Below, piece after piece: positions 6,184-63,400 of a stretch of 64,000 nt of DNA. Positions within the stretch are counted from its first letter, which is position 1. Each line of letters starts with the position of its first letter. This DNA is from Cloeon dipterum (Eukaryota; Arthropoda; Insecta; Ephemeroptera; Baetidae): the NCBI RefSeq assembly GCF_949628265.1, contig NC_088787.1:30928501-30992500 (forward strand), read 5' to 3'. Made by a program: the position numbers and the translations under genes. The notes under the pieces were generated by a model. The model saw nothing but the letters and a program-made list of their open reading frames with translations. It did no database searches and had not been told where the DNA came from.

Positions 6184-8182
6184 CACGTGTTGCCCGCTGT
6201 TGCTGTCGAGGGCCGCAGTCCAGTTGTCCAGGGTTTTCAGCAACATTGTCGTGCACGAGCGCCGCTCGCGGAAGCCGTGCTGGCAGTCTGGCAGGGAATT
6301 TATCCTCTCAAAGAAGGCTGCAAGCTGGTTGCGGACGTGCTTCTCCAAGAGTTTTCCAACGAGCGAGGTGACGCTGATGGGGCGGTAATTATTGAAATCA
6401 TTTTTGTTACCTTCTTTTGGGATCGGCGTCACCGCTGCACCCTTCCAGTCGGCCGGCAAGTCGCGTGTCCGCAGCGAAAGGTTGAAAATGTGGGCGAGGC
6501 TGGGGCAGATCGTCTCAGCGCAGTTTTTGAGCAGCACTGCAGGGATGCCGTCCGGTCCTGCGGCACTTTTGGCGTCCAGGACGTGCAGCAAGGCGCTGAC
6601 CTCGCTCGCCGTGATATGCAGCTTGCTCATCTTCTCATTTTGGACGGGCGCGCGGCGCACGAACGGAAAATCAGTGGCGAGAAGTTCTGCTTGAAAGTGG
6701 CGAGAAATTGGCTAGCGACGGCTGCAGGCTCACTGAAAATACGGCCGTCAGCTGAAAAAGTAGTCGTGTTAATCGGCACTTTTGATTTAGAATAAATGAA
6801 TTTCCAGAACACAGCTGCCCCTTGTGGTCCACGGCCGAGATTCCAAAACCATCACAGTCTTTAGCCAGTCTGACAGCGCCTTGGGTCGCCTTTCTCGCCG
6901 TCTCAAAAATGCTTCTTGCCTCATTGGTTTTCTCGCTCCTCCACTGCGCGAACAGATCATCTTTAATTTTTATTAACTTTTTTAAATTTTTATCGAGCCA
7001 GGGGAGCAGCTTCCTCTTAGATCGCGTCCTTCTGGTTGGCACACACTCCTCGACGCATTCGAACAGCGCTGTCTTCCAGGCTGTCCAGGCTTTAAAGAGG
7101 TCATCTTCTTGCGTCACTTCTTGCAGCTTCACCGCGAGTTGGTCGTTGAGAGCCGGCCAGTGGGCGCGCCGCCAGTCCGGAAGTGTCATAGACACAGGTG
7201 GCGGGCGGCGGGGGTCCACCTTGAGGCCGATCAACAACGCGTCGTGGTCGCTAACGCCGGCGATAACCTCGCTCGTGGAGACTAGATTCGGCGTGTCGCA
7301 CAGGAACAAGTCGATGGTCTTCTCGCTCGTGGCCGTGGTTCTCGTTGCGTTTTTTTATCAGCTGCGCAAAGGCGAAATTATCAAAGGCGTCGACGAATTG
7401 TTCAGCAGGTGCAGCTCTCGGCAGCGGCGTCTCAGTGTTCCAGTCTACGTCCAAATTGAAATCGCCCATGACAAAGCACTCGTCTTAATTGTGCTGCTGC
7501 TCGGCGGCCAGCGCAAGCGAGCGAAGCAGCTCATCGTTTTGCTCCGGCGTTCTGTTTGGTGCTCTGTACACCGAGGCGATGAGGAAACGCAAATTCGAGA
7601 CCGTCACCTCGCCCCAAACGGCCTCAGCAGTGGTCCCGAGCTGTGTCTGTCGGCGCCGCAGAAGGTGTGGAAGAATGGCCAGCAGGACACCGCCTGCTGG
7701 TCTACGGCCGCCAGTTCAGTCCTTTCGCATCACAACGTAGTCTGTCGGGATCACCTCGTGGTCAAAGATATCAGGCGACAACCATGTCTCGTTATAATAG
7801 CTAGAACGTCCGCAGGATGACACTCGAGAAGACCAGCAATGTCAGCAGCTCTTTTCCTGTTTTTTAGTGACCGCGCGTTAAAGCACAAAATTGCAGCTGA
7901 TTTTTTATTGTTTTGATGCTGCTGGGAACTACTCGCTCGAGTTGGACGCAGCGGCTCGGGAACGCTCCAGAAGGAATCATTCATCATTGGCAAAGAGCAG
8001 GGCCAGCAGCTAAAATTATTCTTCTTTTTGTAATCGTTAACCTCTTTCTCGCTCATTTTTGTGTATTTGAGGAGGATCGTTCTGTGAAATTCCAGCAGGC
8101 AATCGTTGCATCTGATAAATACGGCGTTCTTGCGGCCGGCTTTGTCACAATAAAAGCATAAAGAGGGTGGCATCTCTAGCAT
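6181..8182 (-). mobile_element. Decayed non-LTR retrotransposon (CR1/L2-like), 3' truncated
   Basis: The minus strand encodes fragments of one polyprotein in order, spread over several frames. First comes a cysteine/histidine finger near 8140-7990 (CFYCDKAG, CNDCLLEFH, CWPC), then an endonuclease beginning near 7880 with CFNARSLKNR, ETWLSPD and GDFNLDVDW and ending with SDHDALL near 7245. The start of reverse transcriptase follows, with SAAGPDGIPAVLLKN and NYRPISVTSLVGKLLEKH near 6560-6340. The copy stops inside the reverse transcriptase at 6181, so the catalytic YADD region is absent. Frameshifts are visible near 7712 and 7490. The sets of motifs fit apurinic-endonuclease LINEs of the CR1/L2/Jockey group; clade is inferred, not tested. 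It cannot be autonomous. Confidence 0.8.
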
Positions 8183-8552: not shown

Positions 8553-11451
8553 TCACGCTTGATAACGGTCCAAAAATCGTACACGCCGACCTGATCTGAT
8601 TACAACCTCAGGACGTGGAAGTGGCGGTGGAGGTAACGGTGGAGGTAACCGTGGCTGAGTCTGCCGAGATGGTCTCTGAGTGTGGACGGTTGGTGTGTCG
8701 TCAGGCAGACTGTATGCGGGTTTGAGGCGATCCTTAGAGACCACGACTTCCTTCTCTTTGATCCGAAGAGTAAAAGTTTTCTCGGTCTTCGCCAGCACCT
8801 CGTACGGGCCAGTGTACGGAGGCTGTAGCGATGTCCGAACCGCGTCTGTTCTAAGGTAGACCATGGGTGCGGTGTCCAAGTCTTTGAAGATGAAGACTTT
8901 GGCTTTAGCGTGGTGAGCAGCAGGAACGGGGCGGAGTGTGGAGAAGTTTTGCCGAAGCTGACGCAGCAGCTCAGAGGCGCTGATGTCATCGAAATCGGTT
9001 TTTGCAAGAAATTCGCCAGGCAGACGCAGGGGTTCACCGTAGACGAGTTCTGCAGGGGTCGCTTTAATGTCTTCCTTGTAGAGGCAGCGGAGACCATGAA
9101 GGACGAGTGGCAAGCTATCGTGTGGTCAGCGGTTGCGTCTTCTTAAGGTATTGCCTCACACCAACGAGTGAAGCGGTCCACGATGGTTAGGCAGTATTTG
9201 TATCCGTTAGCTGGTGGGAGTGGGCCAATCAAGTCCAGGTTGAGAACTGCGAATCGAGCTTCAGGGAGGGGGTGAGTCTGCCACGGAGTCGTTACGTGCC
9301 GAGAGACCTTAGAGAGTTGGCAGTCTTTGCAGGCCCGAGTCCAGGCAATGACGTTCTTCCTGAGGCCAGGCCAGACGAAACGTTGCGATACCAGCCGCAC
9401 AGAAGCTTTGATTCCCAGGTGGGCAAGTCCATGAAGTGCCTTAAATGCGGGAAATCTGAAATCAGAAGTCAAGAATGGGTGGTTACGACCAGTAGAAATG
9501 TCGCAGTAGAGCGATTGGTCTTTTCCAGGGATTTGGATTTGTCGCAGCTGAAGCGTAGTCCCTCCTTTAAGAAAGCTCTGTAGCTCAGGGTCAGTCTCTT
9601 GAGCCAGCACCAGGGCCGAGAAGTCCACTGGAAGTGTTGACAGAGCCTCGATCTCGATGCGGGAGAGAGCGTCGGCCACGATGTTTTCTTTTCCAGGCAG
9701 GTAGCGGATGTCCGTAGAGAATTGTCCGATAAAGTCGAGGTGTCATATCTGACGGGGAGAGCGGTTCTTTCCTTCTTTGAAGGCAGATGCTAGAGGTTTA
9801 TGATCGGTGTAAATGGTGAATGGTCTTGCTTCAAGTAGATGACGAAAGTAGCTGATGGTTGATTAGATGGCGAGCAGCTCACGGTCGTAGGTCACGTACT
9901 TCTGTTGAGCCGGGTAGAGCTTCTTCTAGTAGAAACCTAGAGGTTGCCAAGCTCCATCCACAAATTGCTGAAGAACGCCACCCATGCCAATGTCCGAAGC
10001 GTCGATAACAATGCTTAAAGGACAATTTGGCTGAGGATGAGCGAGTTTGGTGGCTTCAGCCAGCTTCTTCTTACAGGTGTTGAAGGCTTTGATGGCTTCA
10101 GGAGTCATGTTGATTTTTGACTTGTTCTTCAGGTTTGGTTGTGCCAGGATTGCGTTTTGATTGGAGCCTGGTCCAGGGCAATGTGAGGCATCCAGCGATG
10201 ATATAAGTTGAGGAGGCCAAGGAAACGGCGGAGTTGGTCGACCGTCTGGGGCACAGGAAAGTCGACGATGGTCTTGATGTGCCTGTCCAGAAGAGGATAC
10301 CGTTCGCAGAAACCTTGTAGCCCAGGAAGTCAATCTCTGACGCGCCGAAGACGCATTTGGAGACGTTGAGTACCAGGCCATAGTCCTGAAGACGCTGAAA
10401 CAGAGTGTGTAGATGTTCTGCATGCTCCTTCTCGTTTCGTAAGAAGACGAGAATGTCGTCAATGTATACAAACACGAAGGGAAGTTCTCGTGTTACTTCT
10501 TGCATGCAGTGTTGAAAAGTTTGGCTTGCATTCTGAAGTCCAAAAGGCATACAGAAATTCGTACAAACCAAATGGTGTCGTGATGGCCGTCTTTTGGATG
10601 TCCGGTGGGTGGACAGGGATGTGGTAGAAGGCCTTTGGGATGTCCAGGACGGAGAAGATGCTGCAGCCAGCGAGTTTGGCAGTGGTATCTTGGATATTCG
10701 GGACGGAGTAGCGGTCGGGCTCTGTCCTAGCGTTGAGCATGCGGTAGTCTCCGCAGTCCCTCCAGGTTCCATCATTTTTCTTGACAGTGTGGAGAGGTGA
10801 AGCCCATTGACTGCGCGAGGGACGCATCTTGCCAGACTTGATGTAAGACGCGAAACGTTCTCGAGCAGCAGCTTCTCGTTGTGGATCCATTCGTCTAGGT
10901 TTGGTGAAGACAGGTGGTCCATCGGTTGTTTTGATGTAGTGGACGGTATTGTGCTTGATGATCTTGTCGTGGGAAGGCAGGCGGGTCAACTTCAGGAAAG
11001 TCTTTGAGGATGTCGAAGAAGGGGCCAGTGCCGGTGATAGTTTTCACGCTGGGCCAGTTACATGTTGGCTTGATACCAATAACGGAGCAGCTGGTGAGGT
11101 TGTCAATGAGTTTCTGCAGTCTGATGTCCACCAGGAGGTCTTAATGAGTTAGAAAGTCGACACCGATGATTGGTTTTCCTACGTCCGCAACGACAAAGTT
11201 CCAAGAAAATTCTCGTCGCAGCCCGAGGTTGAGGTTGATGTTAAGCACACCGTATAGATTTTGATTGCAGATCCGTTGGCCGCAGTCAGGTCCAAGAAGG
11301 TTTTAGCGAGGGAGTCAAGGTTTTTCACAAGGTTGCGTGGGAAAACACACACGTCAGAACCTGTGTCAACCAGAAATTCAATATTTGTTTGCCTGTCTTT
11401 GATGAAGAGGCGGCCGGATGGAGAGGAGCAAGTGGTTGCCGCCTCTAGCAC
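8553..11451 (-). pseudogene. gypsy pol pseudogene (protease, RT, RNase H, integrase)
   Basis: Visible landmarks are an aspartic protease DTGSD motif near 11350, the reverse transcriptase FVYIDDIL box near 10480, an RNase H start with IVIDASDIGMGG near 10000, and an integrase HHCC-type zinc finger with CKDCQ near 9340. After LDLIGPLP and DRFTRWCEA near 9160 the frame is lost. The text resumes with a segment normally found about a hundred residues later, so most of the integrase catalytic core has been deleted around 9115-9150. Stops interrupt RNase H near 9925 and 9870. The last part (9113-8553) is the proline-rich integrase tail ending at a stop. The protein cannot be functional. Confidence 0.85.
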
Positions 11452-12165
11452 TTGCTGTTTATGTTTCCCGACTGGAAGAATTTACATCCTTCGAGACATT
11501 TCCGTGCCTTGGGGCCAAATTCTCCGTGGTAGAAGCAGGTGCCGTCGGAGTTGAAGCGAGGACGAGATCGGCTGCGGTTGCGGCGACGATCGAATTTCTT
11601 GCTGTCGTCCACTCTGTCATCTGAACATAGTCCTGGCGTTGAGGGCTTCGTCCCCGGTCTTGTTTCAGGCTTATGGCCAAGGACTGGATGCTGTCCAGCA
11701 CACCAGACACCAGTTTTGCATGTCGCGCTCTGGTTATTTTCGATGAGGCGTCGGTAGTCGTCATATGGATCAAGGGCCACTAGTGGTGGGCGGGTCGCGG
11801 TTGCTGCAAAAGTGTACTGTTGTTTGCCAAGAATGTTCCAAATGTGATCTGCGGTCTCTGCTTGGTCCGTCAGGGAGCAGGCGGTCTGTGTGGCAAGGAG
11901 CTTGCGGATTTCGTTTGGAAGCCGGTTGATCCAGATCGTGCGCAGCATGTCGTCAGTGCCTTCCTTATCGGCGAGACATTGCAATTTGCGGAGAAAGGTT
12001 GAGGGCTTTTGGTCCCCCAGTTCTTCTCTCGCCAGCAGCTGTTGCAGTTCTAGCGGGTCTTTGGTTGGACCAAAAGCCGTTTCAAAATTTCCGCCTTTAC
12101 GTGTTTATAGGCGTCTGTTTCTGGTAAGTTCCTGAAGATGTCGCGCGTCTGCACGTAGAAATTAA
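11445..12165 (-). pseudogene. gypsy gag pseudogene
   Basis: This fragment is a retroelement capsid: it starts abruptly near 12165 in a helical segment (NLPETDAYKHVKAEILKRL) and continues through FNG-like LADKEGTDDMLRTIWINRLP near 11960. It ends in an atypical zinc knuckle of the CxYHxxFGxxARxC type (CFYHGEFGPKARKCLEGC, near 11490) rather than CCHC. A stop and frame change occur near 12055. The upstream end of the open frame is formed by the neighbouring foldback element, so the true gag start is gone. Confidence 0.75.
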
Positions 12166-20344: not shown

Positions 20345-21703
20345 TCAAGCCTTGTTTTGGTTTGGGTTGCAAGAGTTGCTGGGGTAGTTAAACAGCCTGT
20401 CCTTGATGACCTGCGCCACGAGGCCGTGGATGACCTCGATGGACGTCTTGCAGCTGTCCTTGGTCGCCTTGGACAGTTTGTCCTCGGTCCGCTTGTCGTG
20501 CGGATCCAACATCATGTAACTGCTCCTTCCGAGCGCGTTCTCCGCCTGCTCCAGCTTATCCGACAGATCAAAGATTTGGCCTGTTGTGTAGTCAGCGTTC
20601 TGTTTATATTTAAATTAGGTTCGATTCAGGAAGGGTATTCATGACATTTACAGTGAGAAGAGATGAGGAACCAAGTGTGTTGACCCAGTAGCGGTTCCAC
20701 AGTGAATCGAGCAGCTTCCTGTCCAGACTCGACTTGAAATAAGTTACGTCCAGCGCGTAATACTGCTTGCAGTGCACACCAAAATCTTCAATCTTGTTCA
20801 GGGGGATGGTCTGGTACTCTGAGGGCTCGTCATTGGCAGCCTTGTAACCCTGAAATCGAATTGCTTGGTGAAAAATAGCTCATTATTAAGAATTGTTTTG
20901 AAAAGAAGTCAAGAAAATTATTGAAATTTTATTTTGTTTTTAAGAAAAATTTGCCAACTGCCACAGCATAACACCTGATTTTAAATAATAAATTTGAACT
21001 AACGAACTTTTAAGCTGATTCGCATGCCAGTTTGGTAAAAATGGCGTCAAATACCTTGGGGTAAGTCCTGAAGGCGGCCAGGTTGACTTTGCCAGCTGAA
21101 ATGGTCCTCACCGGATCGATCACAATCGCGACAAATGGCTCCTGGAAATTCTGGTTGAGCATTTGCGTGGAGACGTCAATGCCGCTGAGCCAGCAGCCGT
21201 AGCCAGGGTGGCTGTGGTACCAGCCGATGGCGTTCTCCAGCCGGCCCACCTTCTTTGCCGACTCCATGTACTGGGTCATGTACTCGTAGGCCTGGGCCTG
21301 CGCGTTGACCCTGGTTTCTGTGCCTTCCACCGGCAGGGCGAACGAGTCCATCACCACCATCGTGTTGCCGTCCACCTTGCCGACGAGTAGACCCATCACC
21401 TCGAGGGTGCCTCCGGAACGGGCGTGCATCACCATTTTCAGCAGTGCTAGAGCTGAGATGCGGATGTCTTTGAAGAAGTAAACGCTGCAATTTTTTTCAA
21501 TCGATTATTGTTGTAAATCGATAATATGTATGCGTATTTTACTCTTTATCCCATGGTTTGGCTGACTGGATGTCTTTCTGCTGGTTTTCGTCGTAGCGGT
21601 ACACTTCGTCCATCGTGTTCACGCTTTCAATGTTGTTACTCAGCTCCCATGTTTTCAGCGCGATTTCGCTTTGACTCGTGCTGGCGGTACTTGTGCTCGC
21701 CAT
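20345..21703 (-). CDS. CSN5: COP9 signalosome subunit 5 (JAMM deneddylase)
   Basis: Four exons (21543-21703, 21055-21484, 20652-20849, 20345-20599) give 347 residues. CSN5 is the zinc metalloprotease subunit of the COP9 signalosome and removes Nedd8 from cullins, controlling cullin-RING ubiquitin ligases in nucleus and cytoplasm. The full JAMM signature is present: Glu82 in LEVMG, then [14 protein letters not shown] giving His144, His146, Ser154 and Asp157. The C-terminal half also follows the family ([19 protein letters not shown], then YWVNTL and [12 protein letters not shown]). Length is close to the 334 residues of human CSN5; the extra residues are in the serine/threonine-rich N-terminus. 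The start MASTSTAS precedes the conserved WELSNNI segment. All catalytic ligands are kept, so it should be active. Confidence 0.97.
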
Positions 21704-26445: not shown

Positions 26446-29400
26446 TTAGGAAGCACGAGGATCAGACAACCTAGAATATTAAATAGTTAAGTAAGCCCTT
26501 GTACAGAAATTAAGCGAGCCTTTGCTAGGGCTAGACAAACTTACTTGTGAATGGTGATGTGGGGCTGGGCAGCTAGGTTCAGTTCTTGAGGCGTGAAGAA
26601 GATGAACTGATTAGTGGGACGGCTGTCCGCCTCCCTCAGCAACATGTCCGTTGCTTTGCGCCTGTTGAAAAGATAAGTCACAACTAAAAATAATAATTTA
26701 CTAGAGGGTCAGACCTGTTGGCCATGTCCATGAACACGTCAAACTCGTCGAGCATGTAGAATGGAACGAGCAGTTTGTTCCAGACGGCCAGCACCAGGGC
26801 CACGGTCGTGAAGGAACGTTCGCCACCTGATAAGTTTCTAGCGCCCTCGCCTGATCTTCCCTTGAAATTGGTCGAGATCGACATGGTCTGTTTCTCAAGA
26901 TTGACCTCCAATTTTCCCTGAAATCAAATCATCACACACCAGTCACATTTAAAATTATTTGACGCGCACCTCGATTGGTTGCGAGCCGAAAAGGTTGGAG
27001 AAGTACAGGTTGATGTGAACAAAGGTGTTCATGACGGCATTCCCGTAGAAGGAGACACGCTTTTTCATGCTATCTTCCATCTCGGCCAAGTTTTTGGCCA
27101 CCAGCTGCAAGTTTTCTGTGTCTTTGGCAACCTTTTCATCGAGGCGTTCCACCTCGGCCTTTACCACGTCCACATCCTCCAGCTCAGCGTTCAATTTCTG
27201 CAAATAAAGCAAAATTTGTGTGATCATTACACCTTTCTTGGCCTATTTTCTGCCCATTTCTACAGCCTGATTTTTAATTCTTCAAAATAACCGACCTTGA
27301 TGACCGAATTCTGGCGTTCAATCTCCCTCAAAATGCTGCTTCGGTCCTTCTGAGTGTTGACACGCTCTCCGACCACGTTGGCAGCAGCCGCAGCATCGGC
27401 AACCTTCTTTCTCTGGGTGGTCAGTTCCGCCTCCAGCTGCACTCTCTTCTCAGCCATCACTTTCTGACGCTGCTTGCGCCTCTGAGCATTGTCCTCCTCG
27501 TCCTCAAGCTTGCGCTCCAACTGCCGCTTTCGCATCTCGCATTGACTGCATTTCTCATCCAACACCTCAAATTAAATATCAAAACACTACTTTCAATACG
27601 GCATCATATTTGAGTTAAAAATTTAGGACCAAGGTTCAGAAAAATTTCTGAATTTTCTGATTATTTAGCCTTCAGGGTAAATTAATGGCTCCTCCATAAA
27701 TTCTAAACTATTTTTAATAAACAGAAATCATTTGGTTTTAAAAAAGAATTAAAAAGTTAGTTATTTTTTAGTCACCTTCATTAAGATTATCATAAATTAA
27801 AAAATTCACCTTTCAACAGGTTTGTCTTTTCAATTTAATATGAAAATAATAACCATTTGAAGTTAAGAGTTAGCGAACAGCAGAAGCTCCCATCCGGAGC
27901 AACCGCGGCTCGAACAGGCATACTCTAGACTGAGGTGCCCATGCGACACTGAGGGCCGTTGTAACACAGGTTAAATTCAATTAACTTTATTTCCAAATCA
28001 TTCCTTAGACGCCCGAGAGTTGTTGATATAAATTTATAAAAAAAAAAACTTTGAAGTGGTGGTCCAGAGCGGAAGTTTTGATACGTTCTTGGCATCAAAA
28101 TTCTTAATTTCTTACAGTCAATATATATAGTTTAGAGTTACCCTAAATTCTGCAGCGAGTTGTTTCAGTTCGACCTCATACTGCTTCTTTATGGCCTCTT
28201 GTTCACTTCGGGCCTCGGAAGCGTGTTCCCTTTGTGACTGAATCTCTGCAATTTTCATCTCGTTTTCTTCCAACTCTTCTTGCTGCGGATTGACGATAAA
28301 TTGGAATGAACAAACCAAACAATTATACACACCAGGGTTTGCAAGTTGTCAACCGAATTGACCGGTTGCTGGTTTTCTGCGACGCGAATGGCAGCCGTCA
28401 GTCGCTCCACGGTTTGATCCAGTTCCTTGCGTCGCGTCTCGTGAGCAGCGACTTGCTCCTTGTGCTTTTTGTAGTCGTCCTCTCTCTGCCGCCACTCTTC
28501 CTCGGCACTCTTTCGCTCCTCAGCAGCCTGAGCCACGCGTTGCTCGTACAAGGCGATGTTGGCTTCCGTGCTTTTGACCAAGATTTGCACCTAAATTTTT
28601 CAATAAATTACCTAATCACACAGGTTGGCTTTTAAAATGCATACATCTCCCTCCTTGCCGTAGACCTTGAAGTTGGGAGAAGGAAACACCTGCTCTGCAT
28701 CCTTGGTCACAATCAACGAGCAGTTGCTAGGCACCCTGCAAAATTATTCTTAAAAATGCTGCAAAATTTTTAATGTTTACTTCCTTGAAACAAAATTGAA
28801 TCGGTTCTTAACCTATTGCTATTTTCTCGCCAGAAAGAATTTTCAGCTGTTTTGTTTTAATTATTTTGACATTTCATAACTTGATATTAGAAATTCAGCA
28901 CAAAACCGTTCCAAGGATTTTTTAACTCTCGGTTTAGTGATAAACTCCAACTCTTAATTTGAATAATGCAACAAAGTGGAGCATCCAGGAATGAACCTTT
29001 ATTCAAATAAATGACTTTAAAAATATGCTAAGAATTGTGCTGAAAGAACCATGAAAATTGGCTCAAAAGCCAATCAATATTAATCCGAAGCACTTTCACG
29101 AATCTAATTCAATGGTGCAATATAACTTACGTCTCACTACTCTGCATCATCTCAATGGCCTTCCTAGTGTCAGCGCAGAGCAAAACGTTTTCTACACGAC
29201 GTTGGTCAAGGAAGAAATTGAACAGTCTGGGATCCTCAATGTCAAGAATGTCGAGCAGACTGAGCAGGCCCTGCGGAGGGAACGGTAATCTTCCCTTCGT
29301 AGGAATTATTTAATTTGCATACAGGTGGTGCAACTGCCTTGGTGTTCTGAATGTCAAAAGGATGGTCAAAGAATTTGCTGACGACGCACTGCACGGGCCG

Positions 29401-31724
29401 CCCAACGATCCTACGCGCCAGGCCGTCCAGCACATTCTTGTCGTCGAAGTTGTCGCAGAAGAAAACCTGCATTTCCGATCTCAGCAGGTTTTCCACGGCC
29501 AAACTCCAAGAGTAATCCTTCAGCTTCAACTGATACAACGCAGTCAATGACGGATTCTCGGATCTGGATTTCTGAAGTGCTTACGTGCAAGCCAATCGGC
29601 CCAACAGGTTTGTGCTTGAACGATCCCTGTTGAGCGGCACGGTCCACTTCTCTCAACAAGTCAGGCATTTTGGGTCCGAAGACTGGTGGAATCGCAGAAG
29701 CGCTGCTCTCTCGACGTACACGTGCGAAGTTTTGCTCAGCATTTCCTAAGAATTTTTGTAAACCAAACTTGATTACAAAACTGACTTCTGAACGCATGAA
29801 AATTCTAAATTAAAATCAGGTTTTGCTTAAGCCACAGCAACGTTTTAAATAACATTGATATAGTTTTCATAAAAATGATGAGTAAAAAATATTGAAAAAA
29901 GGAACAGGCAAAAATACAAATCCCTGATTAATTTATGTCCCAGGTTAAGGCAGTTTGTTACCCGGCAACAACTTAAATATATTTTGGTCTCATGCCATAA
30001 GTTTGATGTAGAGGGAATTATTCAGCCGAGAGAAGAGAAATTGGCTGTCATTATTCAGTAGTTGCTTTCAAAACACTGGACAAGCAACTAAATTAATATT
30101 ATTTAATTAATAATATGAATGAGACGTGAATAAATATTACTGAGTCCACTTCTGGTTGATTCCATGTGTTCTTTGGCATTGGCGGCCCAGTGCTGCAGAT
30201 CTCTCATTTGACGCCTTTCTACGTCGAGCTGTTCCACAAGCGGCGTGAGTTCCTGAAGCGCCGCTGCAAGATTGCTTTTATTTTGTTCCAGCTGCTCCTG
30301 TTCCCTGGCCCTCTTCCTAGTCTCCGCATCACTCGACCTGGCAATTGAGAATTAATATGAGGGAGCAAGCCCAAAGGCGAATTCTCACTGATTGGCAATT
30401 CTTGCAATTTCCGCCTGCAGGTCCTTCCTCTCTCTGTTCAACACACTGATCTGTCCATCGAGAGACTGCATCGACCGACGTAGTTCATCAATCCTGTTTT
30501 GGGCATCCAGGTGCATCTTGTACTTGAGGTCCTTGTCCTGCTTTTTCTGGGTGTACAAGTTCCTAGCGTTCCTCCAGTCTTCGATCTCCAACCTGACGCA
30601 GAGAGAGTTTTCAATAAATTGGACATCATTTTCGAGCTTTTAATACTTCAGCTGATCTTGGACTTTGCTCCTCTCGTCTGCAAGCTTGTCGATTTTGGTT
30701 TGGAATGAATTCTGCTCAGAGCAGAGGGCATCCAGTCGGCCAGACAGCTGCAGCTCCTTTTCCTCCTCCTCTCGAACACCAGCCCAGGCCAGTTCCAGCT
30801 GCAACCTTTCTAGTTTTGACGAGGCCTGATGAGTTTTCTCGTGCTGCTTCACTTTCTGCTTCCAAGTTTTCAGCTCTTCTTCCACTCGCTTCAGACTAGC
30901 CGCCATTTGCGACTTCTTTTTGACCAGACCAGACACCTGATTTATTTTTTAACAATAAAAAACCGATTAATCTATTCAATTTTCTGCGCAATCAGGATAC
31001 TATACCTTATCCTTCAGTTCAGCCAATCGGACCTTGATGGCAGAGACTCCAGTTCCCTGCTCGATCAATGTGAACATTTGGCTCGGTTTGTTGTTGTGCA
31101 GAAACGTCTTCATCGTCTCCTGAGTAAGCAGGGCAAACGGGTTGGGCAGGTTGATGTTCAACGCCTGCAGCACCTCTCCCAGTTCAGATTTGGAGCAAGT
31201 GACTACGTTCCCAGAGGCCAAACCCACCGTCAGTCGGTTTGCTCCTTTGGCTGATAGAAAAAATTGCACTATTTTAAAATTAACTCAAGCTAATGTGATC
31301 CAGACCTGCGATGGTTCTGGTGAGGACAATGAGCAGTCCGTATCTGTCCATCTTGTACGAGTTGGGTCCCTGATTGGACAGCGTGATTTTCACGACCGCC
31401 TGTCGGCAGCCCAGCTTGACAAAGGCGGCCAGAGAACGACCACGCGCAGTGTCCGACGCCTTGGTTCCTAAGACCACCATCAGGGCAGCCATGATGGCGG
31501 ATTTCCCGCTGCCGTTCTTGCCAACCACCATGTTCACCCTAGGATTCAGTTCCAGGACTAGGTGACTGTGGCACATGAAATTGGTCAGTTCCACCTTCTT
31601 GATGATGCCGGCTAAGCCCTGATTATGTATATCAAAAATGTTAAATTGTTAGAAAATTAATGTGTAAAGCACATACTTGTGCATCTCGCCGGCTCAACTG
31701 AGAAGATTTACCCTTTCTGGACAT
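26446..31724 (-). CDS. SMC6: Structural maintenance of chromosomes protein 6
   Basis: Seventeen exons keep one frame for 1045 residues (human SMC6 has 1091): 31677-31724, 31306-31618, 31006-31250, 30647-30936, 30389-30592, 30141-30337, 29585-29745, 29323-29529, 29131-29270, 28645-28735, 28333-28590, 28142-28282, 27296-27565, 26970-27197, 26715-26917, 26545-26661 and 26446-26470. SMC6 pairs with SMC5 and the Nse proteins in a nuclear ATPase for recombination repair and replication-fork stability. The Walker A box GKNGSGKS is at residues 49-56, after VELTNFMCHSHLVLELNP, which is SMC6-specific. Coiled coils flank a hinge near 430-600 (GPKMPDLLREVD, GPIGLHLKLKDY). The signature LSGGERS is at about 960 and Walker B FYMLDEFDVFMD at about 984. 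The last exon is only 25 bases and supplies the typical basic/acidic end KLSDPRAS. All ATPase motifs are intact. Confidence 0.95.
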
Positions 31725-34941: not shown

Positions 34942-37900
34942 ATGAATGGGCCAGGAATTAGTTTGTTTCAAGGCACTGAACTCAGGTTGAATCAAACAAA
35001 TCCTGAGGAGGAGGAGGCCGAATTAGCTGAGGAGGAAAAACGGAAGAATGCGGAGGCAAGTCATTTTGCTCTGCCCTTCACTGACGCCTGATAAATAATC
35101 TCTGTTGGTCTACATACAGCTTCGAAATCTGCTTAACGGTGCCTTTGATGACTTGGACATTAACGATGCAGACCTCAGTTTCACCAGCAGCAAAAATCTG
35201 AATGACTATTCACTTCCGGCAGGTAAGATTTATTTTGACAGAAGTTTTCCAAGAATTAATGTTTAAATTTTCAGGAGGAGCCTCTTCAGAAGAAGATTTG
35301 TACCAAGTTAATCCCAAGAGATCAACCAATGGGCTTTCCAATGGCCATGGGGATGGTACCGAATTGTCCGCTCATTACAACCACTGCTACCACAACAAAG
35401 GTTCCTGCGTGGACTCGTCTGCAAGCTCAAGCCCTACCAAGCGGAAAGTCACTGCATCAGGTGATGCCCAGCAGCTGGCTGTTATGTATGAGGTGCGGAT
35501 GAGAGAAATTGTAAGGCTGCAAGACATGTTAGAAGCCAACAAAAAAGAGGCAAATGACAGAATCGAGCGCCTTGGCCACAAGATTTTGCAGTTGGAGGCT
35601 GAGAGAGTGGCTACCAACAGCTCGCTAACACAAACTCAGACTCTTCTTGGTAGTTTTATTTGATTTTAGTGTAAATTTTGCTAATTATTTGTCAACAGTG
35701 TCTGCTAAAGAACAAGTTCAGGGGCTAAAAAAGGAGGTGGATTCGCTAAGAAAACAAAATCAGGATCTGGATGAAATTCGAGAAGAGGTTAATCTACTAT
35801 ATTTTTTAATTATTGAATTACACTAATTTCCATATTTGTTTTATTTCAGCTCGAGCAAGACCGGCTGATCATGAGAGCAAACATGGAAAGTCTTAACTCC
35901 AAACTGGCCGCAATGGAAAAAATCTCAGCTGAAACGTCAGGCGCTCAGCAAGCAGACATGATTATCAGGTCGTTGGAGGAGCGGCAACGCAAGGAAATTA
36001 TCTCATACCAAGTACAAATTGAAGAGATGAAAGAAAAGCTAAGCTACGCGGTACATATACAGTTTGCGAAAATTCTTTTTATATTTGAAAATATCCAATC
36101 AACAGGCTGACAACATCCGAAGCCAAGAGCGACGCAATGCAGAGCTTTCGAGACAGCAGGAAGTCATGTTGCTAGAGAAAGCTGACACGATAAATGGTCT
36201 ATCTAGAGCGCTGGCTCAAAGTCAACAGCACTGCCAGGAACTTATGGCGGCTGACAGAACCAATTCTTCTGTGGAGATCAGGCGTTTGAAAGACACTTTG
36301 AAGCAGCAAGAAGTATTTGATCATCATCCTGAATATTCAGATTGAACTAAATTATTTCTGTTGTTCACAGAGTGCGATTGAAAAGTACAAAATGGACATC
36401 GACCACTTGGAAACCATGGTCGGCTTGAATGTCTTGACGTCTGACTCTGCTGCAGTCACCAGTGGCAAGGCGAGTTTTTACAAGACTGGCCTCGACTCTG
36501 TGGACAGTCTGAGAGAAGAGCTGGCTAAATCTCTGCGCTACCACGAAGCCCGCAGAGCTGAGATAAAACAGCTTCAGTACACAATTCAGGAGAAGGAAAA
36601 TTCTGCAAAGGCCTGGTTGCAGCAGGAGGACCGATACAAAAAGGAATTAACTGAGTTTAAGGTTTGTTAACAAAATCACTTATTTCCCACTTCATTTTTT
36701 GTGAATTCAATTTAATTAGTTTCACACAGCTAAATTTTTCTACTTGTAAATTCATCATATTGGATGGAGCAGAGCTGTTAATTGTACTGAAATAATAAGA
36801 AATTAGGATTTTTGTGATGGCAAATTTTGAACGGTTGAAAAAAAATTTAAAATATGTGACTAAAATTTCGTTTCAATGGCTTTTTCTAAGTGAGCTAAAT
36901 AAAATTTGCGTAAGGAATTTTTTTTTAAACTGACTGGGTAAAATCTGGAAGAAATGCAACCCTGTATCAAAGAATCATCCGATTCGTTTGAAATATACTG
37001 AAACTATCAAATACTAATATAAATTTGTTCTTGCCTGCATTTATCACAAAATTCCCATTTTTTTTACAGACAATGGTTAATATCTTTTCTATTTTTAGTT
37101 AAAATCGATGACAAATTAACGATAAAGGAAAAGGCTAGGAATGGAACAAATATTTTCCAAATTAACTTTAAATAGATTACTCAACTTGTTCGGTTCTCTG
37201 AAAAAGATAACGGATTAATTTTAAAGTGTTTTTCTTTGTAAGGTGAATTTAATTTAGTCCCTTGGAATATGCAACAAAAAACCACGTTGACATCTGATTT
37301 TGAGAACGCCTATGTTAATGTTTTAATCCTTATGAAACGTAAAAATAATCATTTGTGATTTACTTTGGTTTTTATGTATCTTTTTAATTTTAGGCCTCTC
37401 ATGCAAAGCTCAAGAAGCTGCAATAAATTGGAAGGGTTGCGTTTCCAAAGCGTAGGATATTAGTGCAAAATTGCATCTATTCTACATTTTACAAGTAGCT
37501 TTTCCTATTTTCATGCGTCTAAAAACAAAGGTTAAAGAGAAAGAGAACTGGGCAATCTTTTTGACAATCTTCCGCATTACTCATTTTTCCAGGGTTGCCA
37601 ATTTATAATATGTCAATTACTTCCAGGCTGAATGTGACAAACTTGCCAATGATCTTGCGAGGACAAAGAATCGACCAAGTGATGACCAGCTGAGGTATGT
37701 GCAGTGAAATACAAAACTTTTGGATTGAAGTCAAGGGGAAGGGTGCAAATGCAAATGAAAGACTGGTTTAGTGTCAGTACAAGTTGGGTGTTTATTCAGG
37801 ATCGTAATGCCACATAGTTATCCAAGTCCAGAAAGATAGGAATTTTTTGTTGTTTGATGCTGGAATCATGAAATATGGGCTCTTATATTTAACACATCAG

Positions 37901-40900
37901 ATCCGATAAAAAATGCCACATCATGAATTAAATTTGAACTACACTATTCAGTCGAGCTATTGGAATCAGTCAAATTGTAAGAGTCAGAGACATTCAAACC
38001 AGTTGAATCAGTCGAGTGGTCATCATCATCTGTCAATTGCTCGTCATCTCCAGATACAGGACCACCAAGGGTGCTATCAGGCATTTGTGTCGGAGAGATA
38101 GGGGCATATACAGGGTTGTACAAAGGAGAATTAGGGGTATACGTAGGAGAGGAAGGAGGGTATGTAGGAGAGGTGGGGGCAAATGCAGGGGAGTGATGGA
38201 TGTACAAAGGAGAGTTAGGGGCATACGTAGGAGAGGTAGGAGGGTATGAAGGAGAGGTGGGGGCAAATGCGGGGGAGTGAGGGTTGTACAAAGGAGAGTT
38301 AGGGGTATACGTAGGAGAGGTAGGAGGGTATGAAGGAGAGGTGGGGGCAAATGCAGAGGAGTGAGGGTTGTGCAAAGGAGAGTTAGGGTTATACGTAGGA
38401 GAGGTAGGAGGGTATGAAGGAGAGGTGGGGGCAAATGCAGAGGAGTGAGGGTTGTGCAAAGGAGAGTTAGGGGTATACGTAGGAGAGGTGGGGGCAAATT
38501 CAGGGGAGCGAGCGTTGTACAAAGGAGAGTTAGTGGCATACGTAGGGCCAAATTGAAGAAAGGTAGGATATGCAGGGGAGGAGGGGAAATCTTCAGGAGA
38601 GCTTGGGTCGTATGGAGGAACGGTGTGGGCGGGTGCAGGTGCGGTAAGGGAAAATTCAGGAGAGCTAGGGTCGTATGAAGGAACGGTGTGGGCGGGTGCA
38701 GGTGCGGTAAGGGAAAATTCAGGAGATCTAGGGTCGTATGAAGGAACGGTGGGGGCGGGTGCAGTAGAGGTAGGTTGTAATCCGGGAGTGGTAGGTTGAA
38801 ATCTGGGCATGTACGAAGGAGAGCCAGGCAAATGAACGCCAGGTGTATAGCCAGGAGAGTAACGTCCGTAAGGATAGTGAGGATCGGGTTCAGGCTCGGG
38901 CTCGGGCTCCTCGTTACTTTGGTTTGGATTCAATTTCCTGGCCAACTTTCTCTCTTTGGCACGTGTTTTGCGTGATTGATTCTTCATCTTCCTGGTTTTC
39001 TTGGGTTGCTCCTCCTCAGGCCCCTTGTCGATTCGGGGCGGCCACCACGACGTCAGTCTCATCTTGGCCAGAGGATCCTCGTCAAGCTGAATCCTGAGCA
39101 CTGTGCCCGCCGGGATGTCAATCTCGCCCATCCTGACGTAATTATCCATCTCCTCAGGCCCGAAGAAAACGCGGTAGTGTCCATCAGGCGCTTGGGACGT
39201 TGTGAAGAACCAGGTTTTGAGAGTTCTGACGTCCGTGTACGGCTGGCACTCGTATGGGCCCAAAACGAGCTCCCCCACAACGTTTCTACCAGCAAATTTG
39301 AGGAAAATGTTTCTCGGAAACGAGTCGCTGTATCTTATCAGGGTGATGCTGTCACCTCTAGTGATGTTGTACGTTTTGAGAGGCAGGCCAGGCTCGATCA
39401 CTCGGCTCGCAACAAAGAGCATCCTCGCTACTTTTCCCTTCTGGGCTGCGAGTTCTTGCTCGAACTTGTTGGGTTCGATCTTTTCGTACAAGACAGACGC
39501 ATTGGCAGTGTCAAAGGCGTCCGAGTCAACTCCCAAGACGAACTCGGTGTTGTCTGACTTGTCGCGAACTACCACGTAACTGAACGAGTTGCTGACAGCC
39601 ACCGAAATTCTCCACCTGGTTCCTTTGACTTCGATTTCGCTCATCATGTCTGTGTCGGCAAGGACGTGTTTGCCACTAAGATACAGAGTCTGGAACTGCC
39701 ACGGGATACCTGTGGCTTTTTGGATGTACGTTTTCACCTTTCTCACAGAGTCCGTAGGATTAAAGCGAACCAAGAAGGATTTTGTGTCCAGCAGAAGATT
39801 GGTTACCCAAATGAATCGCGTTGGAGCCCTGTAAATTATTTGTTTCAGTTATGTGATCATGGAATGCTATACACGCATGTGTACGTACCTTTTCTTATAA
39901 TAAGGTCGGTCAACCATGGCAATTTTTCGTTCATCCTCGTGCCGAAGTGCGTTTTCCCTCGCCAACCTCGTACTCTTGTTGTATTTCTTCACGATCATGC
40001 CACGATATTTGGCATTCAACTTCTTCTTCATCTTGCGGCCCATGATGATGGAAAATCAATCCAACGTCAAAGCAAATTCTTCCTGTCTGTCATGCGGCAA
40101 CGGCAGCTTTGGTTCTGTTAGTGTGTTCTGTGTTGTTGTTTATTTGAATACTTCGAGGGTTGGCAATATCAATATCGATACATCAAAAAAATTTGATATG
40201 TCAAATATCATATCAGTTATCATGGCTGATATTTGATATATCATATCAGGCTGATATTGATATCTAAGTCGGATATCAAGGTTGATATTAGTTGACATTT
40301 TTGACCGACAGATGGCATTTTTCATGCCGGTTTTCGCATAAAAGTTTAGGATCAAACTGTACTTTCCGTCCCCAAACATGGGCGTAACCGATATTGAAGT
40401 TTTCGCAATGCACAAAGGCGCGAAAAATGTCTCAGCTGATCGATCACAGATGATCTCTCAGCTGTGGTCAGCTTATAGTAGCTTTTGTGTTGAATGAAAA
40501 TTATATTAAATTGTTTGTAAACAATGGTCAGCAACGTCAGGTAGGTCAGGTAAAACCCTGACAACAATAAAGGCCACCCACGCCAGCTGATCGGTCACAG
40601 ATGACCTCTGTCAGCTGGCAGTACCACATTTACTTGTTGAATTAAAATGATATGTAACAAATTGTTTGTAAACAATGATTTTAGATTTCAATGGTGAATA
40701 ATTAAGAACTTATTGTAACTAATCCAATCAAAATGTGTACAAATAGCGCAAATAATATTGCGAAAATTGCTCTGATGATGGCATAGCCCCAAATTAAAAA
40801 TTGAAATACTTAATACAAAACAGCTGCTACGGTTTAAAGTAATTTCATTCTGATTTCTCTTATGTGTATCTATTAAACTCAATTATTTATTACCAGATAA

Positions 40901-43533
40901 AGGTTGAAAAGCACATTATGATGTGGAGAAAAACACCCCAATATTTTAATTTGAAGAAAAATTGACGCTCTCACATTATCAGCTGATTTTGTAAACATCA
41001 AACTCAAAAATTAATTTTAAATGGCACAATTAAATTATAATATTTTATTTATTACCTAATAATAGCTATTAATTAATTAATTAGACACCCATGTGGCGGG
41101 TAGGGGGGAAGGGAAAGCAGCCAGATGCAAATTTTGGCGCCATATGGTGGGATCCGACACACCCCCTTCTCAAACATCTGTTTTAAAGGCGCGCAACATT
41201 TAAATTATTTAAATACTCATCCCATATGCCTGCGGAAAACCGCCATTTTTCAAATGTTTTCTTATTTAACCGATATTTATGATAAAACCGGTGAAAAATG
41301 CTTAAAAAATCGGTTTTTAAGCCTTAAAAATAGCCATATCCGGTTTCGGTTCATCCGGCAGCCATTTTTTGATCATCTGGAAATATCATCGTTGATATAT
41401 CAAATTTTGATATTTTTTCGCTGATATATCAGTGATATTGATATTTCAAATATCATATCAAATATCGATAATTGATATTGTTTTTTTCACAAAGTCACAA
41501 CCCTACTTCGAGCGTGTGCGTTGTGCGTGTGCGGGGGAAAAATTTGGGGCCTCGCCCACTTTTTTTAATGGTGCGCGGGAAACAAGCACTAATAGAGTAA
41601 TAATAATAAAATTGCATGCACCGTGCACAAGCCGCTGTGATTCAGGGTTTTAAATAATATATAAAGATAGTTATTTGATATTATTACATATGTACATATA
41701 CCATGCAAATATTATTTTGGAATTTTTAACCACTTTTTGAAATAGATTGTTTTAGAACCTTTTCATTAATGGTTTTTAATCAGCTATAAATGGTGTTACC
41801 CTCAAATTTAGTGTTGATCGTCTTGATTTTAATAAATAATTAATTCTTCTTCCAACTGGTGCCCTATTTAGGAGAATTTAATTTAATTTAACAATTTGTT
41901 GCTATCTTTTGTTTTGAAAAACAAAAATTGCCTTTTTTTCAGCGAGGAAAATTCGGCACTGAAAATCTCGCACTTGGAAACAGCCATTGAACGACTTCAA
42001 GCGCAGAACGTCCAGCTGGCGGAGAGTTCGGTGGAGCTGCAGCGAATTTGTGATGAAGAGAAGTTCAAAGTGATCGACGACCACAGCCGCGAGTATTTGT
42101 GTTTCCACCACGATGCTGTGGCCAAAGCTCGGCAAGAGGAGCGGGACAAAGTGCAGAGCGAAATTCAAAAATTAAAGTAAGATTCAGGCTGAACGCTTAC
42201 CTTTTATCTTTTATACACAATCTAAAACAGGTGCGAGTTGGAATTGGCTCTGGAGGATGCAGACAAGTCGAAGCAAGCGTACATCAACTTGGTCACCACC
42301 AAAAATGCAGTTGCCACGGAGCTGGAGAGCCAGCGCAAGATTTTAGGGAAGCTGCAGAACCAGGTTGGCTCAAATGCCAACCCAAAACACGAACTGGGAG
42401 ACATGCAGCTGGCTGCATACGAGGAGAGAGTGCGAAGGGAGATTGAAAATGGTATTCAGTTTATTTTATTGGTTAGAACAATTTAAAACTGGATTCTTCA
42501 GCAAAGAAAGAAATGCTTGACGAAGTGGTGAAGGAGAAGGAAGCTCTGAAGGCTGAAGCTAAAATTGAGGCCGAGAAGGAACTGGAAATAAAAATCCTTG
42601 AAGCTATTGAGAGTGCTAGAAAGGACTGGCTGAAAGATTCCAATGGGTCAAAAATAAGAGACGAGGTAAATGAAAAAAAAATAAATAAAAATAATTTGAT
42701 CCCTATTGAGCTTTTGAACGGCAATTTCTTGCCATGGCAAACACAACTAAATATATTATTTTTCATTTTTACAGCTTGAAGCAGAAGTGGAGAGACTGAA
42801 ATCCCAGTTGGAAAAGCAGGTGGAAGAGGCAAAACTGCAGAAGAAACAACTGGAAGACCGCCTCTGGTCTCACTTCCACGAAGAGCTGATGCGGCTGGAC
42901 CAGTTCCAGGCTGACTCAAAATTAACACGAGCTTCAGACCAACCGAGCGAGCGACAAAACGAAAATGACACGCCGTTGAGGAAGACGCACTCTCTGAACA
43001 ACCTGGAGACTCGTGCCGAGCTGGAGGAGTGCGTGAAGAAGCTGAGCCACGAACTGGAAGAGACGAAGACAGTGCACTCGCAGCGGCTGATGGAGCTGCA
43101 GGAACTGCTGTTCAACAAGCAGAAGGAAATGGAGGAGTTCAAGCAGCGGATGCTCGAGTACACGAGGAGTTTGCACGAAGGCCGTGAAAAGCAGAATGAG
43201 CAGTACATCGGCGCGCTGAAGAAGGAAATAGAGTGTTTGAATGAAGAACTGAGTAAGAAAGCGCATTCTGAGGATCTCAAGAGGCTGAAACACGAAAAAA
43301 TGAGGGCAGCAGAGGAGGTGGCCAAGCTGAGGAGAGCTGTGGAGAAGTACAAGGAAAAAATTACTCAGGCCAAAGATTACTATGAGCGGAGGGAGGATCT
43401 CATCACAGAGCAGTTCAAACAGAAGGAGCGCGAATACTTCAATTTGCTTCTAAAACTCAAGAATGAGGTTGATTCGTTTGAAATCCTCGCACCGATTTCT
43501 CACACTCAGGAGGAACATCCTGTTAAATTGTAG
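34942..43533 (+). CDS. asl: Centriole duplication scaffold, Cep152/asterless-like
   Basis: Twelve exons give 941 residues: 34942-35055, 35120-35222, 35275-35649, 35699-35787, 35850-36050, 36106-36312, 36371-36661, 37627-37694, 41943-42176, 42231-42451, 42502-42665 and 42775-43533. The N-terminal acidic NAELRNLLNGAFDDLDINDA resembles the Cep152 start, which binds Plk4. A long coiled coil follows; LEKADTINGLSRALAQSQQH matches a conserved Cep152 motif. Other matching spots are HHDAVAKARQEERDK with ADKSKQAYINL, and an ESARKDWL segment. Fly Asterless has 994 residues. The protein would recruit Plk4 to centrioles at the pericentriolar boundary. Intron 1 starts with GC instead of GT. Intron 8 is 4.2 kb and contains another gene on the opposite strand. 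Because coiled coils look alike, another centrosomal coiled-coil protein cannot be fully excluded. Confidence 0.75.
37395..37427 (+). other. Possible alternative terminal exon of the Cep152-like gene
   Basis: After a TTTTAG acceptor, 33 bases in the frame left by exon 7 encode ten residues (ASHAKLKKLQ) and a TAA stop that overlaps an AATAAA. Using it would end the protein after the first coiled-coil half. It may be coincidence; the main model skips it. Confidence 0.3.
37944..40043 (-). CDS. Triple ubiquitin-like protein with RNA polymerase II CTD-like heptad repeats
   Basis: Two exons (39889-40043 and 37944-39828) encode 679 residues. Residues 1-52 are lysine/arginine-rich (MGRKMKKKLNAKYRGMIVKK). 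Residues about 57-130 look ubiquitin-like (FIWVTNLLLDTKSFLVRF, then VRKVKTYIQKATGIP and LYLSGKHVLADT, matching the ubiquitin strand-helix-strand pattern). Residues about 135-218 and 224-302 appear to be two further, more diverged beta-grasp units. A basic stretch (about 328-352) and an EPEPEPEP run follow, then proline-rich repeats. At about 489-626 there are about 20 head-to-tail heptads such as YPPTSPT, YTPNSPL, YNPHSPA and FAPTSPS. The tail is Asp/Ser-rich. No diglycine conjugation end was seen. It lies in an intron of the Cep152-like gene on the opposite strand. Expression and function are unknown; the long open frame through perfect in-frame repeats argues it is real. Confidence 0.75.
38105..38520. 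repeat. 84-bp coding minisatellite (four heptads per unit)
   Basis: The + strand string GGGGGCAAATGC recurs at 84-base spacing (near 38176, 38260, 38344 and 38428), with flanking units degenerating on both sides. Eighty-four bases equal 28 residues, exactly four heptads, so unequal exchange has expanded the array without breaking frame. A second coding repeat of about 22 residues (with TAPAPAHTVP) lies upstream in the protein at about 38600-38740. Confidence 0.85.
40158..41504. mobile_element. hAT-type element with ATATC-rich ends, ~1.35 kb
   Basis: ACTTCGAG occurs at 40150-40157 and again at 41505-41512. The ends read GGTTGGCAATATC on the left and CACAACCCT on the right, that is AGGGTTG-type inverted ends with the left terminus apparently lacking about three bases. 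Subterminal GATATC/TGATATTT arrays lie at 40165-40290 and 41385-41480. The interior has a direct duplication: about 40434-40530 and 40582-40680 share CACAGATGA and AATTGTTTGTAAACAATG. No transposase is encoded. It sits 115 bases upstream of the ubiquitin-like gene's start codon. Confidence 0.7.
41505..41942 (+). other. Remainder of the Cep152-like intron 8
   Basis: AT-rich sequence with no recognised feature; it ends in a TTTTTTTCAG acceptor. Confidence 0.5.
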
Positions 43534-62319: not shown

Positions 62320-63400
62320 ACCACGAAACCTCGTCCGTGGATTTTACGTGGATGAATTCCACGAACCTATTTTGCCATTTTTTCTAGTGCACTCGTTTGG
62401 AAATACTTTCCCTTTCGATATTTGACCATTTTTGAGCAGATTTAGTTTGAATTTTTGGGTTTTTAGGGCAAAATTAACGTCCGTGGAACTCACGTGGATG
62501 ATCCCCAATTTCCCAAATTGAGTTTTTGAAGCTCTTTTTGTGCCTAAATTATCGGTAAATGAATTAAGTGCTCCTCTAAAGCTATTTCATTTAATTTTTT
62601 CTTAATTTTTTTGTAAATTTTACTTCGTGGAAGGGTCTCCGTGGATGCTCCGTGGATGTTCCGCGGACGATCCACGGAACTCCGTGGATGCTCCGTGGAA
62701 CTTACGTAGATGATCCCCAATTTCACCAGTCATGTTTTTCATTACTCTTTTGTGTCTAAATTATCAGTAAATGAATTTTAAGTGCTCATCCAAAACTAGT
62801 TTAGTTGATTTTTTTAAATTTTGTAAAATTCCCCATCGTGGAAAATTTTTCGTGGATGCTCCGTGGAACTCACGTGGATGATCCCCAATTTCCCTAAATC
62901 GTGTTTTTAATTCACTTTTTGTGTCTAAAAATTATCGGTAAATGAATTAAGTGCTCCTCCAAAGCTAGTTTATTTAATTTTTTATTATTTTTTAAAATTT
63001 TACTCCGTGGAAAAGTCTTCGTGGATGCTCCGTGGAACTCACGTGGATGATCCCCAATTTCCCAAAAGCATGTGTTTATAATCAATATATGTGTCTGAAT
63101 AATAATCGGTAAATGAATTAAGTGCCTCTCCAAAACTATTTTATTTGATTTTTCTTTAAAATTTTGTGTAATTTCACTTCGTGGAAAGGTCTCCGTGGAT
63201 GCTCCGTGGATGATCCGCGAATGATCCACGGAACTCTCTTAACGCAAAAATGAAAAATAGCATGTATTTGAAGCAAATTGTTCAGTTCATGAGCTGCCCC
63301 TTTTCGCTTTTTTAAATTCATTGGTCATGTCATTCTTGTTTAAATTTCTAAATTTTGGAAATTGGTTAAGTGTCCGTGGAGTTTTCGTGGATGAATCCCC
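62320..63400. repeat. Tandem array, 168-211 bp unit with CGTGGATG motifs
   Basis: The marker GATGATCCCCAATTTC starts at 62498, 62709, 62878 and 63046, giving spacings of 211, 169 and 168 bases. Each unit has a TATCGGTAAATGAAT..AAGTGC middle and ends in repeated CCGTGGATG/CGTGGAACT motifs. The edge units are degenerate. Open frames on the minus strand with HGAST-type repeats reflect the array and are not genes. Confidence 0.85.

Follow-up and report, generated by a model that had tools for sequence, protein, structure and literature searches.

Repeated heptads of the form (YSPTSPS)n make up the C-terminal domain (CTD) of RPB1 in RNA polymerase II (Pol II), and a few proteins outside the polymerase have been connected with this domain. 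An excerpt of PMC4186968 describes a short CTD mimic in Trf4 and reports that the Nrd1 CID can bind either Trf4 or Pol II but not both at once; since the Trf4 motif and the CTD exclude each other at this domain, there is a precedent for CTD mimicry beyond RPB1, as far as that excerpt goes. UBLCP1, a CTD phosphatase with a ubiquitin-like (UBL) domain, binds the proteasome subunit Rpn1 (PMC5451543, in part), and PIE-1, Pgc and Pem-1 are presented in a section of PMC11094015 as unrelated animal germ-line repressors of Pol II that act on CTD phosphorylation. No protein that combines UBL domains with CTD heptads is named in the titles or abstract openings of the open-licence literature, among the matches listed. 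Here we describe a gene from the insect Cloeon dipterum that appears to combine the two, located on the minus strand at 37944..40043 of a stretch of 64,000 nucleotides from contig NC_088787.1 (the window, to which all coordinates refer). As judged from its sequence, the gene is well formed and apparently present in a single copy, and it encodes one certain UBL unit and a CTD-type array of heptads whose key positions look selected. DNA and protein searches of the genome (190 Mb; 10 contigs, of which five measure 33-43 Mb) each gave a single match to it.

The tail of the encoded protein resembles the RPB1 CTD in heptad period, in the aromatic residue at position 1 and in Pro3, Ser5 and Pro6. It differs from it in the missing Ser2, in codon choice, in the lack of a match to the Pfam CTD repeat PF05001, in its fusion to UBL units and in the absence, by Pfam, of a polymerase body upstream of the repeats. 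With regard to the ubiquitin/NEDD8 family (PF00240), the first UBL unit scores above the Pfam cut-off, but the head has no Gly-Gly, its units are internal and the positions of Ile44 and Arg42 are changed. UBLCP1 likewise couples a UBL domain with a CTD theme; it is a phosphatase, however, whereas here Pfam finds no phosphatase domain and it is the CTD-like part that would serve as substrate. The Trf4 NIM is also a CTD-like sequence within a non-polymerase protein, but it is described in the excerpt of PMC4186968 as a single yeast motif of nine residues with acidic residues replacing phosphorylated Ser5, as against an array of about 24 heptads. Rad23-type shuttle proteins also carry a UBL close to the N-terminus, and the NCBIfam rad23 profile scored 14.1 bits (E 0.02), where its cut-off is 207.3; neither a UBA nor another Rad23 domain is found here by Pfam, however. 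Any likeness to PIE-1, Pgc and Pem-1 would be one of role.

The gene and its ubiquitin-like head

The splice model consists of two exons on the minus strand that encode 679 residues, in exact agreement with the locus and length given by a first-pass annotation made from the letters alone. Exon 1 (40043-39889) encodes residues 1-51, which are strongly basic and form a candidate nuclear or nucleolar signal. It is followed by a GT-AG intron of 60 nt (39888-39829, GTACGT...TTTACAG), which contains in-frame stops on read-through, and by exon 2 (39828-37944, stop codon included) with 634 open codons. From the N- to the C-terminus, the protein is laid out as a basic N-terminus, the UBL head, a basic linker, the repeat tail and an acidic end. 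Inspection of the sequence places the second basic segment, a candidate nuclear localisation signal, at residues 328-350 (38934..39002, followed by an E/P run) and the Ser/Thr/Asp-rich acidic end at residues 640-679 (37947..38066). The start codon has A at -3 and G at +4, and the frame upstream of it is open for four codons only.

An open frame as long as exon 2 has a probability of about 1e-10 at its composition, calculated for a single position and with repeats that are not independent, and the 264 UBL codons alone give 5e-6, again for a single position. Codon scoring, trained on 1529 codons from exons picked by eye, ranked the sense frame best of six in exon 1 (0.350 bits per codon) and in the UBL part; the score of the latter, 0.166 bits per codon, compares with a 99th percentile of 0.104 and a maximum of 0.533 in 2000 random stretches of the window, real exons among them. 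The repeat part is not backed by codon scoring, because its sense frame scores -0.312 and is outdone by an antisense frame that scores 0.017 and contains 25 stops.

With regard to the head, Pfam reported two ubiquitin families and one match under the cut-off on the whole protein; matches to PF25358 and PF11479, both below the cut-off, were treated as chance. The first unit, UBL1 (39594..39821, residues 55-130), accounts for the clearest signal. PF00240 scored 41.9 bits on the whole protein and 33.2 bits on UBL1 alone (cut-off 25.4), with a match spanning residues 60-120, and none of 1000 shuffles equalled the score of the alignment of UBL1 to ubiquitin. The head also matched ubiquitin chains among the sequences of solved structures, and the best matches of UBL1 in its own genome were ubiquitin and a sequence that we take to be NEDD8-like. 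We therefore regard UBL1 as certainly ubiquitin-like by sequence. A polyubiquitin gene of the same genome encodes nine or more ubiquitin units of equal score within a single open frame of 691 residues.

The third unit, UBL3 (39072..39326, residues 220-304), is supported as ubiquitin-like by an ungapped alignment with ubiquitin that runs from strand 2 to strand 5 and in which all 11 core positions are hydrophobic, a result equalled by 3 of 5000 shuffles. This core test is uninformative for UBL2, where 3751 of 5000 shuffles reach the observed value, and says little about UBL1 (123 of 5000). In a hidden Markov model (HMM) comparison UBL3 was equalled by 4 of 2000 shuffles, and by none of 2000 once UBL1 joined the model, while shuffle tests gave 13/1000 against ubiquitin and 5/1000 against the best of 17 UBLs of the same genome. 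UBL3 alone had no Pfam match; among solved-structure sequences it found no ubiquitin and only two non-ubiquitin chance matches, and its similarity to UBL1 was small (52 of 1000 shuffles as good).

The second unit, possible UBL2 (39327..39593, residues 131-219), aligns with ubiquitin in its C-terminal half only. A single comparison with ubiquitin was matched by 1 of 1000 shuffles, and 17 of 1000 did as well when the best of the 17 UBLs of the same genome was allowed. By HMM 3 of 2000 shuffles did as well, and 5 of 2000 once UBL1 joined the model. In PF00240 the unit alone scored 11.9 bits (E 0.19), and it shows no similarity to UBL1 or UBL3 (564 and 807 of 1000 shuffles as good, respectively). 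An E-value of 1.8e-7 among solved structures was discounted, as it was reached only by adding up nine matches, each below threshold, to a polyubiquitin chain of nine units. The case for UBL2 as ubiquitin-like is accordingly weak. Where the first-pass annotation counted one clear and two probable units, the clear one is now certain and one of the others supported, the remaining one being weak; in the PF00240 profile, a check of the kind that it proposed for all three, UBL1 alone passes the cut-off.

The sole Gly-Gly of the protein lies at residue 640, far C-terminal of the head. Since the head itself contains none, it would not be a conjugated modifier (type 1 UBL), and a conjugated ubiquitin-like modifier was ruled out on this ground.

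The heptad tail and the RPB1 CTD

The CTD-like tail (38088..38834, minus strand, residues 384-632) contains 19 heptads of the strict form [YF]xPxSPx, where 2000 shuffles gave a mean of 0.39 and a maximum of 3, and 24 heptads of a looser pattern that itself constrains positions 1, 3, 5 and 6. Fourteen heptads are of the strict form YxPxSP. Within the tail, the core array (38121..38540, residues 482-621) holds 20 heptads in unbroken register, and in this pattern-free set Tyr or Phe occupies position 1 in 18, Pro position 3 in 17, Ser position 5 in all 20 and Pro position 6 in 18. Ser2 is found in 0/24 heptads, compared with 16/18 in the final CTD exon of RPB1 from the same genome; position 2 is Ala in 7/24, and position 1 is Phe or His in 9/24. 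The first-pass description of about 20 Y/F-x-P-x-S-P-x heptads that keep positions 1, 3, 5 and 6 and lose Ser2 is hence accurate. The core array consists mostly of a four-heptad higher-order repeat of 84 nt (4.5 tandem copies, 94% matches), and a second repeat of 63 nt (38584..38764, 2.9 copies) carries one YDPxSPE heptad per copy.

When 179 residues of the tail were compared with the sequences of solved structures (E up to 1), 22 of the 23 matches were RNA polymerase subunit chains or CTD peptides, three of them labelled only 'DNA-directed RNA polymerase subunit'. These matches show likeness and not descent, because E-values of repeats are inflated and disordered proteins are few among structures. 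One match was to a CDK7 chain (8p7l_J, its residues 2-24, E 0.043). A search of its own genome with the tail gave 17 matches: the gene itself, the RPB1 gene (best E 1.5e-14) and weak matches to sequence of low complexity. Fifteen loci were examined for these 17 matches, two of which had no locus, and tandem [YF]xPxSP heptads occurred only at the gene itself and at four overlapping RPB1 loci. Pfam identified the RPB1 locus through the CTD repeat PF05001 together with Rpb1 domains 5 and 7; its CTD extends across several exons with canonical YSPTSPS heptads.

The tail and the RPB1 CTD differ in codon choice, with CCT preferred for Pro in the tail (58/76) and CCG in RPB1 (29/50), and TCT for Ser in the tail (24/43) as against TCG in RPB1 (39/84). 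The tail is therefore not a recent copy, and such an origin from the genome's own RPB1 CTD was ruled out. Beyond this, old descent and convergence appear to fit the tail sequence equally well.

Selection was assessed by Nei-Gojobori counts between heptads within the gene, expressed as the ratio of nonsynonymous to synonymous differences per site (pN/pS). For the 18 distinct heptads of the looser pattern this ratio was 0.23 at positions 1, 3, 5 and 6 and 1.37 at positions 2, 4 and 7, a contrast that is partly by construction in this pattern-chosen set. It is not so in the unbroken register, where the 14 distinct heptads gave 0.27 and 1.29, respectively; four heptads at residues 559-586 gave 0.09 and 1.21. 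All these contrasts rest on few events, because many of the heptads arose by duplication of the 84-nt and 63-nt units. Positions 1, 3, 5 and 6 show a purifying pattern and look selected (pN/pS 0.23-0.27), whereas the first-pass annotation had left room for a locus free of purifying selection.

The same duplications are the starting point for another explanation of the tail, namely that it is a disordered Tyr/Pro/Ser region grown by replication slippage, with a convergent likeness to the CTD, and that it acts as a spacer or sticky stretch (in a condensate, as a scaffold or as a substrate of ordinary proline-directed kinases) that has nothing to do with Pol II. The tandem 84-nt and 63-nt units with 94% matches are what slippage would leave behind, the codon choice speaks against recent copying from RPB1, and PF05001 does not report the tail. 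Slippage alone, however, does not explain why synonymous change at positions 1, 3, 5 and 6 stands beside amino-acid change at 2, 4 and 7, and no other protein in the genome search matches the tail more closely than RPB1. We consider this explanation a serious contender, though short of probable.

A possible Ser5-only CTD mimic

The reading that we put forward is that the gene encodes a nuclear UBL adaptor protein working as a Ser5-only mimic of the CTD, to which we assign a probability of roughly 0.35. According to this proposal, the basic segments would carry the protein into the nucleus, where the tail would present some 14-19 Tyr/Phe-x-Pro-x-Ser-Pro heptads similar to those of the Pol II CTD without Ser2. 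CDK7-type kinases, together with enzymes and isomerases that read phosphorylated Ser5-Pro6, might use this tail, while factors dependent on phosphorylated Ser2 could not. The evenly spaced aromatic residues may also allow the tail to join CTD condensates. The UBL head would then tie CTD-binding factors to a partner in the ubiquitin system, for instance the proteasome or p97, and an effect on transcription might follow.

The choice of mechanism leans on work with CTD variants, of which the available part of PMC11502803 reports that CDK7 left Y1A, Y1F, P3G, a Hyp variant and S5A unphosphorylated and that T4G was partly impaired, whereas S2A was phosphorylated above wild type. In the same part, phase separation of the CTD is said to be governed by the aromaticity of Tyr1 and by the prolines. 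Since the tail keeps Tyr1, Pro3 and Ser5, which CDK7 requires in these experiments, and lacks the dispensable Ser2, CTD mimicry leads as the mechanism, within the limits of that partial source.

Several observations weigh against the proposal. PF05001 did not report the tail at E up to 10, although it scored 38.6 bits (cut-off 20.3) on the CTD exon of the genome's own RPB1; by that profile the tail is therefore not a CTD, a result that slightly lowered our estimate of mimicry and slightly raised that of convergence. As Y1F abolishes phosphorylation in the reported data, at most the 14 strict YxPxSP heptads would be good CDK7 substrates. The nine heptads with Phe or His at position 1 would by the same data be poor ones, which speaks against a role as substrate only and is in keeping with a combination of sticker and substrate. 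The Ser-Pro sites would moreover suit any proline-directed kinase. In the head, UBL1 retains Lys48 in the alignment with ubiquitin but has Tyr at the position of Ile44 and Thr at that of Arg42, so that binding of UBL1 to classical ubiquitin receptors is doubtful. The weakness of UBL2, the few events behind the pN/pS contrast and its partial construction in the pattern-chosen set count on the same side. Taken together, what the first-pass annotation observed is confirmed, and its idea of a CTD mimic or Ser5-kinase substrate is partly supported.

A related explanation assigns the protein a role as a transcriptional brake, in which a Ser2-less decoy would tie up kinases or readers of the CTD and thereby reduce Pol II elongation in certain cells or at certain stages, such as the germ line or early embryo, along the lines of the unrelated PIE-1, Pgc and Pem-1. 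The CTD-like motif of PIE-1 carries Ala instead of serine, and the single copy of the present gene, its basic segments, the absence of Ser2 (0/24) and the frequent Ala2 (7/24) would fit such a role. The tail keeps Ser5, however, whereas the PIE-1 motif has no phosphorylatable serine, and no Pfam domain besides ubiquitin exceeds its cut-off. We consider a brake of this kind unlikely.

Returning to the proposed Ser5-only mimic, a further form of it would be a dedicated CTD decoy, in which Ser2-less heptads evolved outside RPB1, were selected at the residues important for CDK7 and condensates, and, tied to UBL units, capture CTD-bound factors and control their turnover or that of Pol II. This is a speculative extension that we would not expect to hold, but if true it would represent a novel means of global braking or tuning of Pol II. 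A Ser2-less CTD-type array outside the polymerase, constrained at specific positions, would be a natural experiment on a Ser5-only CTD code; it would also link CTD biology with the ubiquitin system and opens the question of free CTD arrays as bait or scaffold.

Flanks, likely host intron and the wider window

An AT-rich repeat of 1.35 kb (40156-41506) ends 112 bases upstream of the ATG. At least 33 further copies over 1200 bases in length, at 91-99% identity, were found when 40 of 64 candidates were scored. The repeat has no long open reading frame (ORF) and its ends are rich in GATAT palindromes; it is probably a young non-autonomous mobile element. Its position raises the prospect that the gene is dying or silent, the insertion of a high-copy repeat having taken away the promoter, and the number and identity of the copies agree with this. 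Against such decay, however, stand 679 codons without frameshift or stop, canonical splice sites and start context, and the constraint at the heptad positions, and we regard it as improbable. The 3' flank of the gene matches only itself in the genome, and exon 1 has no second copy there apart from one weak match (E 0.85). The single copy, the unique 3' flank and the end of the repeat 112 bases before the ATG rule out a repeat-borne ORF, including the recent transposon-derived ORF that the first-pass annotation had allowed for.

The gene is flanked by coiled-coil-like exons, recognised by eye, on the plus strand at 35202-36661 and 41943-43530, for which no Pfam family scored above cut-off. They can be joined in phase only from the weaker donor at 36655 (giving ..ELTDEENSALK..), the better donor at 36662 being out of phase. 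The intron-nested position proposed in the first-pass annotation thus has a compatible junction, but one that needs the weaker donor; nesting within an intron of a coiled-coil-like gene is for this reason likely rather than shown.

Phage records gave no match to the gene, and none of the pattern-matching stretches, 8 in viral contigs and 64 in contigs of prokaryote genomes, encodes a relative, a comparison that is uninformative on animals. At eight contig ends no TTAGG-type telomere array was found, TTAGG or CCTAA occurring at most 5 times per 1.5 kb.

Elsewhere in the window, the minus strand carries at 26687-31648 an SMC-family gene (SMC_N, and AAA_23 at 31283-31648) that is SMC6-like by eye, and at 20348-21504 exons resembling, also by eye, the COP9 subunit CSN5 (JAMM). 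On the same strand, ORFs at 8556-12104 contain retroelement-like text (..GKENIVADALSRIE..) and probably belong to a Ty3/gypsy-type element, and those at 6184-7484 resemble a LINE-type endonuclease, both as judged by eye. A tandem repeat of 169 bp is present in 3.1 copies at 62683-63210.
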